From contig VGSJ01000026.1 of assembly GCA_016875015.1 (NCBI GenBank), forward strand, positions 1 through 35,877: DNA of 35,877 bases, read 5' to 3'. Under the pieces are notes generated by a model that was not told the DNA's origin, did not search any database, and saw nothing but the letters and a program-made list of their open reading frames with translations. Source of the stretch: Deltaproteobacteria bacterium. Its GTDB lineage: Bacteria; Desulfobacterota; Desulfobaccia; Desulfobaccales; 0-14-0-80-60-11. Positions 10,515 to 18,483 of this stretch are shown piece by piece. The stretch's first letter is position 1. Each line of letters begins with the position of its first letter. Made by a program: the position numbers and the translations under genes.

Positions 10515-10597
10515 TATACATTGTCGTCAGAGGCTGGGCGCCGTCCCCGGGGAGGTGGGACCGGCCAGCCGAAATCAATCATGTGCCGAGGGGGAGG

Positions 10598-11566
10598 ATG
10601 GAGGACAGCGCCTCACTTGAGAATTGGGAAGCGCGCCTGAAAGAGCGCTATCCTATGCTCCGGTATTTCACGACGCGCTCTTTCGGGGTCGAAATCGAGT
10701 TTTTCGGGTTGAAATACAGCGTTTCCGCCGGGGACCGGGAGGTCATTCCCCCTTACAAGATCGTGAACCGCACCCCCGGGGGGGCTCTACTGCCCCAGGA
10801 ATTTCAGCAGCGGGGCATTGTCCTCAACGAGTCTTTTCCCAACGAGTCGCCTTGCGAGGCCTGGTCCTTTGTGCTGGACGACTCCATCAAGGGGGCCGGG
10901 GGGGCTGAACTGGTGAGCCCCGTTCTCTCGGGGGTTAAGGGGCTGACCCAGATCTATCAAGTCATAAATTTACTCCGGGAGTTCCCGGAGATCCTGGTGA
11001 ATGAAACCTGCGGTTTCCACGTCCACCACGGGGTCGACCCGGAGATGTTCGGCAATCGTGAACTCTTCCAACTGCTCAGGATAGTGGCGATATTTGAAAA
11101 TTACATTTATCATTTGCTGCCCGAAAGCCGCCGCGTGGCGGACACCTGCCGGCCCCTGGAAATTGATCTCTATGAGTGGTTTCGGCGTAACGGGTCCATG
11201 CGGCAGGCGCCCCTGGTGAAAAACCTCTGGTATAGCCCCGAGAACCGGGATGACGCCAAGACGCCGCCCCAGCGCCGACTCCATCCCACCCGCTACCACG
11301 GCCTCAATTTGCATTCCTACTGGTATCGGGGGACCGTGGAATTTCGCTATTATCCTTCCGTGCTGGACCAGCCGGAAGAGCTGATGCAGTGGATTATCTT
11401 CACCCAGTTCCTGGTGGAATGGGGCGCCGGGCGGCGGCCGGAACTGGAATATGTTTCCAAGCCCAACAAGTGGTTAAATACGCTTTACAAGATCTACCTG
11501 GGGGCCGGCATGATGGACCAAATCCGGTTTCCCGGAGGATCGGAAGGAAAGAAGGTTGGCCTATGA
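10598..11566 (+). CDS. Putative amidoligase (Amidoligase_2-like, COOH-NH2 ligase fold)
   Basis: Amidoligase_2 proteins share the glutamine synthetase/gamma-glutamylcysteine ligase fold and are predicted to form amide bonds with ATP. The product of about 322 residues shows the family's motif pattern: GVEIEF near residue 30, VLDDSI near 92 with GGAELVSPVL just after, CGFHVHHGVD near 138, and LNLHSYWYRGTVEFRYYP toward the C-terminus. The acidic, His and Arg residues in these motifs would bind metal and ATP. ATG at 10598 was preferred for the purine-rich GAGGGGGAGG just upstream; a GTG at 10583 is possible. Its TGA overlaps the next gene's ATG. The substrate is unknown. Confidence 0.75.
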   Translation: MEDSASLENWEARLKERYPMLRYFTTRSFGVEIEFFGLKYSVSAGDREVIPPYKIVNRTPGGALLPQEFQQRGIVLNESFPNESPCEAWSFVLDDSIKGAGGAELVSPVLSGVKGLTQIYQVINLLREFPEILVNETCGFHVHHGVDPEMFGNRELFQLLRIVAIFENYIYHLLPESRRVADTCRPLEIDLYEWFRRNGSMRQAPLVKNLWYSPENRDDAKTPPQRRLHPTRYHGLNLHSYWYRGTVEFRYYPSVLDQPEELMQWIIFTQFLVEWGAGRRPELEYVSKPNKWLNTLYKIYLGAGMMDQIRFPGGSEGKKVGL

Positions 11567-11925
11567 CCACCACTGGAGTGCAAACCCACGATTTCTTGAT
11601 GCGCTTAACGAAGGCGGAAGATAGCCTGCCGCCGCTGCTGCTGGAACTGGCCGCGGTGATGCGGCGGATGGTGGAGGAGATCGAGCGGCCCCAACTGGCC
11701 GACATCCAGGGCTTGCAGGCGGAATTGCGGCGGTTGATCGGCGACCCTCAGCGTCTGCGGGATATCTGCGGCACCGAGGGCCAGCTCTGCGGCCAATGCC
11801 CTTTTGGGGCGTATCTGCCTTCCGGGTTCCCCCATGCTTCGGAGAAACAGGCCCTGTGCCTGCCCTGGATCGTCATCGTCCACCCCCAGCCCACCGCTCC
11901 CCCTGCTGATCGTTCCGCTCAATAA
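11563..11925 (+). CDS. Hypothetical Cys-containing protein coupled to the amidoligase
   Basis: I do not recognise this 120-residue protein. It overlaps the amidoligase stop codon by four bases (ATGA), so it is almost certainly co-translated with it. The N-terminal two thirds is helical in character (LTKAEDSLPPLLLELAAVMRRMVEEIERPQ, partly coiled-coil-like). It is followed by a Cys/Gly segment with four cysteines in CGTEGQLCGQCPFG and CLPW, then a Pro-rich tail. It could be a partner, a redox or metal-binding protein, or the substrate of the amidoligase. No signal peptide or membrane segment is visible. It converges with the minus-strand gene ending at 11997. Confidence 0.7.
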   Translation: MTTTGVQTHDFLMRLTKAEDSLPPLLLELAAVMRRMVEEIERPQLADIQGLQAELRRLIGDPQRLRDICGTEGQLCGQCPFGAYLPSGFPHASEKQALCLPWIVIVHPQPTAPPADRSAQ

Positions 11926-11996: not shown

Positions 11997-12362
11997 TCAG
12001 CCTGTGCCAGCGCCCCGGGTTCCCAGGAAGGCGTGCAGGCTCTGGATCACGGGGGAGGCGGGGTCGGCCGGGAGGTTCCACAGCACGATGAGCATGGCTC
12101 CCATGACGCCATCGCCCCAGGAGCAGCTGCATTTTACGGTGGGGGACAGAACGGGCGGTCCCAGGATTTCCTCGAGGCGGGCGATGAATTCCCGTCCCTG
12201 GGTGGAGGCCGGCACGTTTAAAGAGGCCTGGTCGCGGTAGAGGGTGAGGGAGAATTCCACCTCGTCGTCCGCGTGATCGTCCCGGCGGGCGCGCCCTTCC
12301 ACCATGGCCACCTTGCGGCGCGGTTCCTGGTTATCGATCGCTATGCGCCATTCTTGAGACAC
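11997..12362 (-). CDS. Hypothetical protein A, likely paralogue of the protein encoded at 13442-13858
   Basis: This 121-residue protein is not recognised. The start is a GTG at 12362, chosen because AAGGTGA lies five bases upstream; the open frame extends further but that part is Arg/Ala/Pro-rich and implausible. The core aligns by eye with the product at 13442-13858: an early RR, then EG.A, a middle LE+ILGPP, and a C-terminal GAMLIVLWNLPADPASP against GALLLVEWRFPADGRPA. Two cysteines occur as CSCSW. It is the third gene of a minus-strand operon, 90 bases after the metallo-beta-lactamase/TPR gene. No signal or membrane segment is visible. Confidence 0.65.
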   Translation of the reverse strand: MSQEWRIAIDNQEPRRKVAMVEGRARRDDHADDEVEFSLTLYRDQASLNVPASTQGREFIARLEEILGPPVLSPTVKCSCSWGDGVMGAMLIVLWNLPADPASPVIQSLHAFLGTRGAGTG

Positions 12363-12452
12363 CGGGTCACCTTTATCCGGTCGAGCGGGGCGTGGTGCCG
12401 GAACCCGCCGCGCCGCTCTCGCGGCCAGACGCACCGGCGCCGGGAGGCCGGG

Positions 12453-13445
12453 TCAGATCAGCTCTTTTAACCGGACGGCAAAGCCCGGGAGCTGCAGGGC
12501 CTCTTCCACCTTCCCTAACCCCATCAGGGCGAAGCCTTTCCCCATCACGGCTTCTTCCAGGTCCGGGGCCACCTTCAGGATCCGGTTAAAAACCTCCAGG
12601 GCCTCGTCATAGTGCGAAAGCTCCGTCAGGGTGGTGCCTTTATAGACCAGGGCCTCCATGTTCGCCGGGTCCAGCATCAAAGTCAGATTGTAGCATTCCA
12701 GAGCCTTTTCCGGGCGGCCGGCCTCGCTCAGCATCCGGGCCGCGTCCAGGTAAGGCTGGAGGGGATCTTCCTCCACCCCCTTCCGGGTTTCGATATAGGC
12801 GTTGAGCACGTGGTCGCTGCCGTCCGAGAAAGCCGGCATGCCGTGCCCGGGGAGGAGGAAATCCACCGCATAGGGCACCAGGCGGGCCAGGGAGGCGATT
12901 TGCTGGTTCATATTGCCCAACTGCTTGTCGGCGTCGGACAGGATGTTTTCCGTGGAACTGCTGGGGAACAAGGTATCGCCGGAGAAGAGAATGCGGTTAT
13001 GGTGCTCGTAGAGACAGATGTCACCCTTGGTATGGCCGGGAGTGGGGATGACCTCCAGGAGATGGGGCCCCACCTGGATGCGCTCGCCGCCCCTGAGCAT
13101 CACCACCTGGTCGATGCGGCCGGATTTTTTCATGATCTGCATGAAGGGGACGTTGCGAAAATTGATATACGGCAGGGTGTCCATGTGGCCATAGACTTTG
13201 GGCTTGGACCAATCAAAGATCTCGCCCATCCCCCCCACGTGATCGAAGTGACAGTGGGTGAGGAACAGGTGTTCCAGGAGGGAAATATCGAACTCCTGGC
13301 TCAACTCGTGGAGCATGCCGTAATAGTTGCCGGCGTCGATGAGGGTGCGGCCCTCATCCAGGACATAGACATTGCAGCTCATGCCGGCTTCTTCCACCCA
13401 CCAGATACCTTCAAGCCGTGGGTCGTATTCTCCCAGATGGATCAT
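12453..13445 (-). CDS. Metallo-beta-lactamase fold hydrolase with C-terminal TPR repeats
   Basis: The 330-residue product joins a metallo-beta-lactamase domain (about 1-215) to two or three tetratricopeptide repeats (about 225-325). The metal site is clear: THCHFDHVGG gives His64, His66, Asp68 and His69; a further His lies in PTPGHTKGD and an Asp in FSGDTLF. Glyoxalase II-like hydrolases share this layout. The TPR part (KALECYNLTLMLDPANMEALVYKG, DEALEVFNRILKVAPDLEEAVMGKG) suggests a protein partner, plausibly the adjacent small proteins. ATG at 13445 was chosen for the AGGAGG site upstream. It overlaps the stop of the preceding gene by four bases. Confidence 0.85.
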   Translation of the reverse strand: MIHLGEYDPRLEGIWWVEEAGMSCNVYVLDEGRTLIDAGNYYGMLHELSQEFDISLLEHLFLTHCHFDHVGGMGEIFDWSKPKVYGHMDTLPYINFRNVPFMQIMKKSGRIDQVVMLRGGERIQVGPHLLEVIPTPGHTKGDICLYEHHNRILFSGDTLFPSSSTENILSDADKQLGNMNQQIASLARLVPYAVDFLLPGHGMPAFSDGSDHVLNAYIETRKGVEEDPLQPYLDAARMLSEAGRPEKALECYNLTLMLDPANMEALVYKGTTLTELSHYDEALEVFNRILKVAPDLEEAVMGKGFALMGLGKVEEALQLPGFAVRLKELI

Positions 13446-13858
13446 TGCTCCTCCTGACCTGGTTGTCTGCCCGGGGTCGCACCGGCCAGGGATTGGCCCA
13501 TAATCTCTTCCAGGCGCCGGAGCATGGCCGGGCGCCCGTCGGCCGGGAATCGCCATTCCACCAGCAACAAGGCGCCTTCTTCCTCATCCTGGCGGCCGCC
13601 CACCTGGCTCCGGGGCGGCTCCTCCGGGGGGCCAAGTTGGTCGAACAGATAGTCCAGCAGCCGCTCGCCGTCGAAGTCCCGACTCACTTCCAGGGAGAGA
13701 TAATCCAGGCCCATCACGGCATAAAAGTAGAGGGCATCGTGATAAGGCCGTTCATAGGGCGGGGAGGCGTGGCCTTCCAGAATGAGACGGCGAGGGCGGG
13801 CGTCCCGAAGCAGGATGTGAAATTTCCAGCCTGTCTGCACAGTTGGGATCGTCGGCAT
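13442..13858 (-). CDS. Hypothetical protein B, likely paralogue of the protein encoded at 11997-12362
   Basis: This product of about 138 residues is not recognised. The start chosen is ATG 13858, because a near-consensus promoter lies so close upstream that transcription would begin at or next to this ATG; there is no ribosome-binding site. The frame stays open upstream, but that part is unlikely to be transcribed. The core reads GWKFHILLRDARPRRLILEGHAS, then DQLGPPEEPP, then GALLLVEWRFPADGRPAML. This resembles protein A encoded at 11997-12362 in motif order and spacing. It is the first gene of the operon, overlapping the metallo-beta-lactamase/TPR gene (ATGA). Confidence 0.65.
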   Translation of the reverse strand: MPTIPTVQTGWKFHILLRDARPRRLILEGHASPPYERPYHDALYFYAVMGLDYLSLEVSRDFDGERLLDYLFDQLGPPEEPPRSQVGGRQDEEEGALLLVEWRFPADGRPAMLRRLEEIMGQSLAGATPGRQPGQEEQ

Positions 13859-13865
13859 CGTTTGA

Positions 13866-13894
13866 ATTGTACCCGGTTCGGGACCGGATGTCAA
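13866..13894 (-). promoter_or_regulatory. Strong promoter of the B-MBL/TPR-A operon, predicted leaderless
   Basis: On the minus strand a perfect TTGACA (13889-13894) is followed after exactly 17 bases by TACAAT (13866-13871). Only seven bases separate this -10 from the ATG at 13858, so the transcript should begin at or near the start codon. The spacer contains the short inverted repeat CCGGT-cccga-ACCGG, a possible operator. Confidence 0.75.
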
Positions 13895-14057
13895 TCCGCG
13901 CGGGAGACGCCAGGGATCGGTCTTATCACAACTTGCCATCGAACGGATACTTTGTAGCATTGTCGGGGCCGAAATAGGCGTCGGCCCTCTGGCCGGGCGG
14001 ACACGCAGGTCGCTACGACTCATACGAAGTTGCAGTCAAAAAACTATGAATATTTAT

Positions 14058-14313: not shown

Positions 14314-17300
14314 TTACCCCTTCCGGGTCTTGAACTGGCGCACCTGGTACATGAAGGCCTCGAGACGGGTGCGGGTGTGGGTCTGTTCCTGACCGTCGTA
14401 GGCCAGATTCAGGAAGGGGATGTTGTCGTGGCGCTCCCTGAAGAGCTTGAACAGGGAGTTGACCACGGTGCCCGGCATGCAGGTAAACGGCATGATGTTC
14501 ACCAGGCCGCAGGCCCCTTTGCGCACGAAGTCATGGGATTTGCCCATGCTCAAGATGGCCTCCCCTTCGAAGGAGGGGTGCAGGTAGTCCTTGGCCATCT
14601 CCAGGGTCTCGGGGATGGAGGGCTCCGTCAGGTTCTTGATGCTGCCGCGGAAGATCTCCTCCAGCCGGTGCTCGTCCTTTTTCTGGACCCGCTCTTCCAG
14701 GCAGACCGTGAGGAGCTCCCGGAAGCGCCGGTTGGCCAGGGCCGAATGCTTGGAATTGTGAGTGACGTAGAGGAGCCACTCGCCGATGGGCGGCATCCAG
14801 ACCTCGCCGCCTAAGGCCTCGATCTCCCGCACCGCGTTCTCGTTGGAGAACTGGTTGGCCCGGGTGTAGATTTCCCCCACCACGCCCACCAAGGGCTTGC
14901 CGCCGTTGAGGCTCAGGGAGACGGCGTCGAAGGTTTGCCGGGCCTCCTTGAGGACCCCGGTCAGGTCGCCCCGGCTCCGCAAGGCATTGAAGACCTTGAG
15001 GAGATAGTGCTCATAGACCTTGTCGGCCTCGCCGGGGATGGACTCGTAGGGCCGGCTCTGTCGGAGTTTCTTTTCCAAAAGGTCGATGGCCACCATGCCG
15101 TTCCAGGCGATTCGGGAGAAGTCGCCGCCCACCAGGCCCACTTCTTTGTACATGTTTTCGTTCTGATCCGGGGAATAGACCGGCATCTGGGGATACCCCA
15201 GGTCGTCCAGCACCATGCGGTGGAAGCGGTGGTACTGGCCGAAGCGGCAGGGGCCGTCGGCCGCGGGCATGAAGAAGGCGCTTTTGTCCGGGTCGAAGTC
15301 CGGGCGCTGCAACAGTTTGGCCAGATCGCCGGTGGTGAGGATGAGGGGGTAGCACTCCTTGCCCGAGGTGAGGCGGCGGCCCAGTTCCAGGGTCTCTTCA
15401 TCCGAGGGCGGCAGGGCTTCGGCCTCGCCGCCGCAGGCCTGGAACGCCGCCACTATGGCCAGGGCCTGGTCGGTCATGGGGGGCAGGTAAATTTTCCGCT
15501 TGAGATTGCCGGTGACCCGGTAACGGTAAGGCGACAGCCGCTCCGGAGCCGGTTCCACCGTGACGTTCTTCAGGCTGTCCAAAAAGGCCTCCAGCCGGGT
15601 AATGGCTCCCACGTCGGAGGAGTGCTCGTCAATCTCGATTTCCAGGTACGGCTTGCCCCGCATGCGGTCCTTAAAGAAGTGCTGGATGAAGGAGTCGGGG
15701 CCGCAGCCGAAATTGGTGATATAAATGCCGTAGAGCCGGGGGTCGTTGCGGATGAGTTCCGCCACCCCCAAAATTTTCTGACCGAAACGCCAGTACATGG
15801 GCTTGATTTCATCCAGCCGGTCCACCTGGTCCATGGGCAAAAAGTCCATGGGCAGGGCCAGCACCCCCAACTGCCGCAGTTTCCGGTGCAGGTTGAGGTT
15901 CATGCCGGGGTCCAGAGCGTTGTAAGGGCGGCCGATGAGGACCATGAGCCGGCTGTCGGGGGGCAAGGAATCCAGAATCTCCCGGCCCCGGGCGTTGAGG
16001 CGGTCATAGTAGGCCTGCTGGGCCGCCTGCCCTTTAAGCATGGCTCGGTGCACCCGGAAGTGGCCCACCCCCAGTTCTTTCCCCAGATCCCGCAGGCCGT
16101 TCCGCAGCCGGCGCTTGCCCCGGCCGAAATAGAGCACCGGGGCCAACATCTTGGCCCCGAACGCCGCGAAATCGATGGACGTGGGCACGGTGTAGGGCAG
16201 AGATTGGACCATGGGACAGACCACCCCGCTGCCGATCTCGGGGTGCGGATGGGGCAGGTCGATGATGCTGGGCAGGAAGATGCGCTTGACCCCGGCCTTT
16301 AAGAGATCCAGGATGTGGCCGTGGGCCACCTTCACCGGGTAGCAGGGCTCCGCCGCCATGGCCTCGGTTCCCTGGTTAATCACCTTCTTGTTGGTCTTGG
16401 GCGAGTAAACCACCGTGAACCCCAGGTCCTCGAAGAAGACCCGGAAAAAGGGGGCGAGTTCCTGAAAGAACATGGTCCGGGGGATGCCGATGGGGCCGCG
16501 TTTCCCTTCTTTGGGAGGCTCTTCGCCGTAGAGCCAGTTTTCCCGCTCCAGGAGCAGGTCCGGCAAATCGTACTGCTTCTGGGCTTTCCCCACTTCGTAT
16601 TTTTCGCACCGGCTGCCGTAGAACAGGGGCTTTTCCCCTTCGATCTTCACCTGGCGGATTTCGCAGTTGTTGGGACAACCGCTGCATTCAAAGGAAGTGA
16701 TCTCATAGTGCCGGTCGGCCAGGTCGAACCCCTTGAACTGGGAGGACTCCCAGTCCCGTTCCCGCATAGACAGGAGCGCGGCGCCGATGGCCCCGGTGAC
16801 GTCGTGGTGGGGCGGCACCGTGATCTTTTTGCCGCAGACCTGCTGGAAAGCGGCGACGATGCCCTGGTTGGCTGCGGTGGCCCCCTGGTAGAAGATGTGG
16901 TTGCCGATGGGGCGGTCTTCCACCACCTTGTTGAGGTAGTTCTGGACGATGGAATACGACAGGCCGGCTACCAGGTCTTCCTTGACCGCGCCCCGCTGCT
17001 GGTGGTGCACCAGGTCGGACTCCATGAACACGGTGCAGCGCTCGCCCAGGCGCACCGGGTTCTTGCCGGCCAGGGCCAGATCGCCGAACTCGCCTCGGAT
17101 GGAAATCCCCAGCTTTTCGGCCTGCTCCTCCAGGTAGGAGCCGGTGCCCGCGGCGCACACCTTGTTCATCATAAAGTCCACGATGGCGCCGTGGGACAGG
17201 CTGATGAACTTGGAGTCCTGGCCGCCGATCTCGAAGATGGTGTCCACGTTGGGGTCGATGGCCGAGGCGGCGGTGGCCTGGGCGGTGATCTCGTTTCTCA

Positions 17301-18483
17301 CCAGGTCGGCGCCGATGAAGTCCCCGGTGAGATAGCGGCCTGAACCGGTGGTGGCCGCGCCCATAATCCGGATGCGATCCCCTAACCTGGCGCCCACCCG
17401 GCGCAGGCCTTCGGTGATGGCCTCCAGGGGCCGGCCCGCGGTCATGAGGTATTCCCGGGCCAGCACCCGCATCTCGGCGTCGATGACCACCACGTTGGTG
17501 CTGATGGAGCCCACGTCGACGCCCAGGTAGCCTTCCACCACCGAGCCGTCCGCCGGCAGGTCGATCACCCGGTAGTCCTCCGGCCCCAAGGCCTGCGGCG
17601 GGTTAAGCCGCGGCAGGCGCCGGGACTGGTCCTCGTCCTTCAGCAGGTGTTCTTTGAGGGGGTTCAGGTCCAGGTGGAAATCAACCGGCGGGTTCTCCCG
17701 GGCCACCAGCACCGCGCCCACGGCCCCCAGGGAGCAGAAGTGGGGGGGGATAATGAGCCCGGCCTCGTCCAGGTTGAGGACCTGGCGGAAGGCCTGGCGC
17801 ACCCCCAGGTTGTGGGCCACGCCGCCCTGGAAGGCCACCGGCGGGGTGAGGGGCTTGCCCTTGGCGATGTTGCTCTTTAAGTTCCGGGCCATGGCCTGGC
17901 AGAGGCCGGCGATGATCTCGTAATCCGGGGTGGCGCCCTGCTGCAGATGGATCATGTCGGTCTTGGCAAAGACGCTGCAGCGGCCGGCCACCCGGGGCGG
18001 GGTGGTTGACTTAAGGGCCAGTTCGCTGAAATCCTCGATGCTATAACCCAGGCGGTGCGCCTGCTGGTCCAGGAAAGAGCCGGTGCCCGCGGCGCACATG
18101 GTGTTCATGGCGAAATCCTCGATGATCAGGTGGCCGTCCTCCTCCCCCACCATGATCATCTTGGCGTCTTCGCCCCCCATGTCGATGATGGTGCGGGCCT
18201 GGGGCGCAAAATGGTGCGTCCCCCGCCCTTGGGCGATGACTTCATTGATGAACCGGCCGCCTAAGATATCCGCCAGGCGCTGGCCCCCCATGCCGGTGCA
18301 GGCCACCAGCCGGCACTGCGTGAGCGGCAATTCCAGGGACTCCAGGAGGTCTAAAGCCGTGCGGGATGGCGCCCCTATGTGGCGGCGGTAAACTTCTTTG
18401 ACCACCTCGCCCTCGGGATTGATGATCACCAGGTTGACGCTTACGGAGCCGACATCCAGCCCCACGTCGAATTTGCCTTGCAT
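14314..18483 (-). CDS. Double acyl-CoA dehydratase activase fused to DUF2229/HgdB-like domains
   Basis: HgdC/BadF-type activases use ATP hydrolysis to inject a low-potential electron into 2-hydroxyacyl-CoA dehydratases or benzoyl-CoA reductases. This 1389-residue protein holds two complete ASKHA modules. The first (about 5-265) has GLDVGS at 8 and the cluster-binding Cys130 (MCAAGTGS) and Cys169. The second (about 318-590) has GVDVGSISTN, Cys443 (VCAAGTGS) and Cys483. A Cys-rich link (FECSGCPNNCEIR) leads into a DUF2229-type region (about 660-900) and an HgdB/D-like C-terminal part. This giant architecture is known in anaerobes, but its substrate is unclear. The upstream radical SAM gene lies 76 bases away. 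Confidence 0.9.
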   Translation of the reverse strand: MQGKFDVGLDVGSVSVNLVIINPEGEVVKEVYRRHIGAPSRTALDLLESLELPLTQCRLVACTGMGGQRLADILGGRFINEVIAQGRGTHHFAPQARTIIDMGGEDAKMIMVGEEDGHLIIEDFAMNTMCAAGTGSFLDQQAHRLGYSIEDFSELALKSTTPPRVAGRCSVFAKTDMIHLQQGATPDYEIIAGLCQAMARNLKSNIAKGKPLTPPVAFQGGVAHNLGVRQAFRQVLNLDEAGLIIPPHFCSLGAVGAVLVARENPPVDFHLDLNPLKEHLLKDEDQSRRLPRLNPPQALGPEDYRVIDLPADGSVVEGYLGVDVGSISTNVVVIDAEMRVLAREYLMTAGRPLEAITEGLRRVGARLGDRIRIMGAATTGSGRYLTGDFIGADLVRNEITAQATAASAIDPNVDTIFEIGGQDSKFISLSHGAIVDFMMNKVCAAGTGSYLEEQAEKLGISIRGEFGDLALAGKNPVRLGERCTVFMESDLVHHQQRGAVKEDLVAGLSYSIVQNYLNKVVEDRPIGNHIFYQGATAANQGIVAAFQQVCGKKITVPPHHDVTGAIGAALLSMRERDWESSQFKGFDLADRHYEITSFECSGCPNNCEIRQVKIEGEKPLFYGSRCEKYEVGKAQKQYDLPDLLLERENWLYGEEPPKEGKRGPIGIPRTMFFQELAPFFRVFFEDLGFTVVYSPKTNKKVINQGTEAMAAEPCYPVKVAHGHILDLLKAGVKRIFLPSIIDLPHPHPEIGSGVVCPMVQSLPYTVPTSIDFAAFGAKMLAPVLYFGRGKRRLRNGLRDLGKELGVGHFRVHRAMLKGQAAQQAYYDRLNARGREILDSLPPDSRLMVLIGRPYNALDPGMNLNLHRKLRQLGVLALPMDFLPMDQVDRLDEIKPMYWRFGQKILGVAELIRNDPRLYGIYITNFGCGPDSFIQHFFKDRMRGKPYLEIEIDEHSSDVGAITRLEAFLDSLKNVTVEPAPERLSPYRYRVTGNLKRKIYLPPMTDQALAIVAAFQACGGEAEALPPSDEETLELGRRLTSGKECYPLILTTGDLAKLLQRPDFDPDKSAFFMPAADGPCRFGQYHRFHRMVLDDLGYPQMPVYSPDQNENMYKEVGLVGGDFSRIAWNGMVAIDLLEKKLRQSRPYESIPGEADKVYEHYLLKVFNALRSRGDLTGVLKEARQTFDAVSLSLNGGKPLVGVVGEIYTRANQFSNENAVREIEALGGEVWMPPIGEWLLYVTHNSKHSALANRRFRELLTVCLEERVQKKDEHRLEEIFRGSIKNLTEPSIPETLEMAKDYLHPSFEGEAILSMGKSHDFVRKGACGLVNIMPFTCMPGTVVNSLFKLFRERHDNIPFLNLAYDGQEQTHTRTRLEAFMYQVRQFKTRKG

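Follow-up and report, generated by a model that had tools for sequence, protein, structure and literature searches.

What does a predicted amidoligase do with a small cysteine-containing protein whose start codon lies inside its own stop? This is the question raised by the locus studied here, which sits in a window (the whole stretch of DNA analyzed) of 35,877 nucleotides, one contig of a 148-contig assembly. The initial annotation had described an Amidoligase_2-like enzyme "translationally fused" to a 120-residue partner and had proposed a two-gene modification system. Named relatives of the locus come from metagenome-assembled Desulfobaccales, Syntrophobacterales, and Deltaproteobacteria. 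In the window, a run of ribosomal genes ending with rplQ (L17, 8614-9015) is followed by an NlpC/P60 gene (9502-10323), the amidoligase gene, and the small gene. The pair comprises the following features:

10598 to 11566, forward strand: Amidoligase_2 (PF12224) enzyme, 322 aa, with an alternative GTG start at 10583 (Pfam E 9e-33; motif residues invariant in 13/13)
11563 to 11566, forward strand: ATGA overlap of the amidoligase stop and the small-gene start (seen in the sequence; kept in 11/13 genomes)
11563 to 11925, forward strand: small lineage-specific protein, 120 aa, with four invariant cysteines (13 homologues, each beside an amidoligase; dN/dS about 0.15-0.44)
11596 to 11769, forward strand: stretch of the small protein predicted to be helical, residues about 12-69 (within a four-helix stretch, 4-69; AlphaFold)
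11767 to 11874, forward strand: conserved cysteine-bearing part of the small protein, spanning residues 69-104, with C69, C76, C79, and C99 (cysteines invariant in 13/13)

The amidoligase reading frame runs from the ATG at 10598 to the stop codon at 11564-11566; the GTG at 10583 is possible as a start, yet conservation begins at about the ATG. The family assignment was borne out, as the enzyme matches PF12224 with an E-value of 9e-33 and a score of 114.6 bits where the cut-off is 22, over positions 2-243 of the 245 in the profile. The initial annotation had allowed for an enzyme without the conserved residues of its family; we found instead that E32, E34, E104, H141, H143, R232, N237, E248, and R250 are invariant in 13/13 sequences. 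The ExE, E-V/L-x-SP, HxH, and EFR motifs of PF12224 are intact throughout the lineage (13/13) and in sister sequences, and are visible in canonical members. The gene is under purifying selection (dN/dS about 0.22-0.25). A glutamine-synthetase-like fold would be expected from the family; the AlphaFold model of the enzyme has a mean pLDDT of 37.6, and a search by sequence for a solved relative found none. From these alignments, the predicted amidoligase of the window belongs to a distinct, divergent subfamily of Amidoligase_2 that keeps all the family motif residues. Our literature search found no paper testing the function of an Amidoligase_2 enzyme.

The small gene, preceded by a Shine-Dalgarno-like AAGG, starts at the ATG at 11563, and its stop codon ends at 11925. 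The ATGA overlap proved exact and the 120-residue frame real, with a dN/dS that indicates purifying selection. The overlap couples the two genes, as "translationally fused" implied, but the reading frames are separate and there is no fusion. The two genomes of the 13 that depart from the ATGA arrangement have a 2-nt gap in one case and a 26-nt overlap in the other. The adjacency is also conserved: among the 29 genomes of the order, 13 carry both genes, adjacent every time, and none carries one alone, and the only PF12224 matches in the order lie in these same 13 genomes. A scan of the genome_contigs set returned 12 loci for the small protein, 12/12 of them beside an amidoligase. A small protein without homologues, or one unlinked to amidoligases elsewhere, would have spoken against the pair; its 13 homologues are all amidoligase-linked.

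The small protein itself is built in two parts. AlphaFold predicts four helices over residues 4-69, with block pLDDT values of 62-79 over residues 11-70; the mean pLDDT for the whole protein is 55, and the cysteine part has no confident model. This latter part opens with the CGTEGQLCGQCPFG segment (residues 69-82). The 13 sequences align without difficulty, and the four invariant cysteines fall in the best-conserved stretch, in the pattern CGxxGxLCxxCPFGxYLPxGFxxASxxQxLCLPWIV. D10, K17, and D47 are also invariant (n=13). The initial annotation had asked for conserved Glu, Lys, and Cys residues in this protein, and the four cysteines fit that expectation in 13/13 genomes, but E72 is replaced by Q in one of them. 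The C-terminal tail is not conserved, its last 16 residues being variable. Searches of Pfam, NCBIfam, PHROGs, and PADLOC gave nothing above cut-off for the small protein, and its PDB matches were at chance level; dynamin (PDB) and VMAP-M0/CCDC85 (Pfam) matches were set aside as chance helical similarity. The four cysteines would fit a metal or Fe-S site, and the small protein is a lineage-specific, predicted helical protein that probably binds a metal. A RiPP precursor was considered and rejected: the C-terminal half of the small protein is its best-conserved part, with only the last 16 residues varying freely, and the sole nearby peptidase, NlpC/P60, is unlinked to the pair.

Other neighbors of the pair were examined as potential partners. 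NlpC/P60, which would have pointed to peptidoglycan modification, was found in 28/29 genomes of the order whether the pair is present or absent, and it was rejected because it adjoins rplQ even where the pair is missing; the upstream NlpC/P60 gene is incidental. A defense system was also dismissed, with no PADLOC match, and a scan for promoters and terminators stayed near chance level. Farther downstream, two reverse-strand genes (11997-12434 and 13442-14023) encode proteins without a Pfam family that share 28% identity (E 1e-9); they flank a metallo-beta-lactamase/TPR gene, and this arrangement recurs in most related loci. Beyond them, also on the reverse strand, 14314-18483 encodes a single chain of 1389 aa that combines two stretches of BadF/BcrAD ATPase with a DUF2229 domain.

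A partner of another kind emerged from the relatives of the enzyme. The nearest amidoligases outside the lineage, at loci L059, L060, and L061, belong to other families and are 43-44% identical to it; what comes after them is a class II glutamine amidotransferase (GATase), not the small protein. When the class of one of these sister amidoligases was searched, 23 such loci were recovered at strong E-values, with a GATase (GATase 1) directly after the amidoligase in 23/23 and a second GATase match within the fetched stretch in 19/23. In the window's order, a profile of GATase 1 detected two GATase genes in tandem in each of the 13 amidoligase-bearing genomes and in 0/16 of the others. In the window's genome, this tandem pair lies at G000:C98:4338-5827 (L139:4338-5827), separate from the amidoligase locus. 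Across 395 genomes of the phylum, those with full-length GATase matches (E below 1e-69) were the very ten that carry this amidoligase subfamily, the profile having been built from three of those ten; three further genomes gave weak, partial matches only. In the amidoligase operon of the window lineage, the position of the GATases is filled by the four-cysteine protein, and the GATases themselves are encoded at a different locus. The initial view of a two-gene modification system is right about the coupled pair, but it is too small, because the relatives' genes adjoin class II GATases and the same GATases stand in tandem at a second locus in every amidoligase-bearing genome of the order (all 13). 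As the set is co-distributed even when split over two loci, the sequences suggest a functional link between the amidoligase and the GATases beyond adjacency.

The two GATases differ in their predicted activity. Both match GATase_4 (PF13230; cut-off 23), copy 2 with 94.7 bits and copy 1 with 40.2 bits, the latter a match at the level of the fold. In the copies read, copy 2 keeps Cys2 and the HIR, HPF, HNG, and Asp motifs and aligns with PDB 1te5, so that the class II catalytic motif (N-terminal Cys, Arg, HNG, Asp) is complete; copy 1 keeps Cys2 alone, and its Arg, HNG, and Asp are lost. Because an apparently active GATase stands beside a degenerate one, the arrangement suggests a heteromeric complex. 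An identification as EgtC (TIGR03442) was rejected at 44.9 and 20.4 bits against an equivalog cut-off of 218.65. In several genera the GATases adjoin a gene for a P-loop kinase of the CLP1_P type, which at L141, L142, L143, and L144 shares 8 nt with the first GATase; the corresponding place in the window's genome is occupied by a RecQ helicase gene (L139:2097-4307). The kinase was rejected as a partner because its distribution differs, most genomes without the module carrying it, and no full-length match was found in the window's own genus.

The small protein is specific to the lineage. In 55 sister-group genomes it was not found, with chance-level matches only (best E 0.01), and plasmids and viral contigs yielded none. 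In the draw of 395 phylum genomes it is confined to the window's family, apart from one marginal match (G071, E 9.6e-4) to the helical part alone, within a frame of 674 aa, which we attribute to chance resemblance between helices. Neither the pair nor the GATases were found in the seven genomes of the other family in the order. When the amidoligases are placed on a tree, the 13 that are accompanied by the small protein group as a single clade (SH-aLRT 99), and the GATase-associated sequences need one label change only, with weak support (64); the placement of viral and canonical amidoligases is unsure because their branches are long. The canonical amidoligases at L046, L049, and L051 are nearly identical although they come from genomes of three different families (end branches 0.004-0.024), and each is accompanied by a middle gene of ~174 aa and a GATase. 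Because of this near-identity across families, the sequences suggest a recent transfer. On a tree of NlpC/P60 genes from 28 genomes, two changes are needed to account for where the pair occurs, and they can be read as a single gain plus a single loss, with moderate support (86-89) at the forks concerned; since the pattern may amount to that alone, it represents few independent events. The genome that falls within the carrying clade without carrying the pair (G019, 98% complete) has the rplQ-NlpC site and lacks the GATases as well. Another genome without the pair and the GATases, G020, adds little, because its NlpC was also not found.

How, then, might the small protein contribute? A ligase resembling glutamine synthetase (GS) activates a carboxylate with ATP and forms an amide, and class II GATases free ammonia from glutamine or hydrolyze a gamma-glutamyl amide. 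The reading that we favor, with about even confidence, is a glutamine-linked amidoligase pathway, with the small protein serving the amidoligase as its dedicated subunit or adaptor in an accessory role. GATase copy 2 would release ammonia from glutamine or remove a gamma-glutamyl group, and the amidoligase would activate a carboxylate with ATP and make the amide bond. Its small partner would bind the amidoligase, probably via the helical part, would probably coordinate a metal, either Zn or Fe-S, through the four cysteines, and may stabilize the enzyme or direct it to its target. We infer the accessory role from its distribution: an accessory subunit is the simplest reading because the small protein is always linked to the ligase where the GATases stand apart, and its absence from the sister group makes it an addition to the core chemistry and not a requirement of it.

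The obligate coupling and co-occurrence of the two genes would also suit a protein that is itself the dedicated substrate or carrier, with a side-chain carboxylate or amine being ligated as in LysW, and the small size, the four cysteines, and the invariant D10, K17, and D47 are in keeping with this. However, as the sister amidoligases work without such a protein, the core reaction is unlikely to use it as a substrate; moreover, with Q at position 72 in one genome and a C-terminus that is not conserved, there is no conserved Glu to ligate, and no known carrier family is matched. The substrate role put forward at the outset is possible but unsupported, and we regard the substrate or carrier reading as unlikely. 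An identification as LysW itself was rejected, given the lack of an NCBIfam match and the variable C-terminus. A broader scheme, in which the GS-like amidoligase and the active and degenerate GATases form a new modification system acting on or through a dedicated four-cysteine protein as its carrier or target, with the making and later removal of a protein-bound amide, appears distinctly improbable.

The position of the four invariant cysteines in the best-conserved part could also point to a sensor of redox state or metal, with an Fe-S cluster or a cysteine pair turning the amidoligase on or off, and the named members of the order to which the relatives belong are anaerobes. Yet no known Fe-S or redox family motif was matched, and a sensor seems rather doubtful. 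Finally, operon partners can be functionally remote, and the pair might be co-transcribed neighbors with the small protein in an unrelated role. The presence pattern, possibly just one gain and one loss, would allow this, and NlpC/P60 provides a local example of a stable neighbor without a functional link. However, the start/stop overlap in 11/13 genomes, the fact that the two genes are never apart, and their joint absence from G019, inside the carrying clade, leave mere co-transcription very unlikely. Returning to the accessory-subunit reading, the GATase link of this amidoligase lineage goes beyond the earlier two-gene view, and it looks as if the two GATases encoded elsewhere complete a modification pathway of four proteins. 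The fixed partners of this subfamily, an active and a degenerate GATase plus, in one lineage, the four-cysteine protein, offer a small gene set for joint expression.

Among known systems, the LysW amino-group carrier is a small four-cysteine protein that works with a carboxylate-amine ligase. The small protein of the window resembles it in size, in its four cysteines, and in its pairing with a predicted carboxylate-amine ligase. In contrast to LysW, it has no family match and no conserved C-terminal Glu, it has an additional helical N-terminal part, and its ligase is an Amidoligase_2 rather than an ATP-grasp enzyme. GATase copy 2 shares the Cys2, HIR, HPF, HNG, and Asp motif of YafJ/EgtC-type class II GATases (PF13230; PDB 1te5), whereas the GATases of the window lineage score far under the EgtC cut-off and copy 1 is without the Arg, HNG, and Asp. 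Amidoligase_2 (PF12224) corresponds to the GS-like COOH-NH2 ligases described by Iyer et al. (2009; doi 10.1039/b917682a), as cited in PMC4431377 and PMC10580990; the latter, a paper on marine phages, indicates that amidoligase and GATase genes occur in phages as well. The window enzyme is like these ligases in its whole-domain match, its retained motif residues, and its GATase association. It differs in belonging to a divergent subfamily whose GATases form an active/degenerate tandem pair and, in the window lineage, in having these GATases at another locus and a four-cysteine protein coupled to the ligase.
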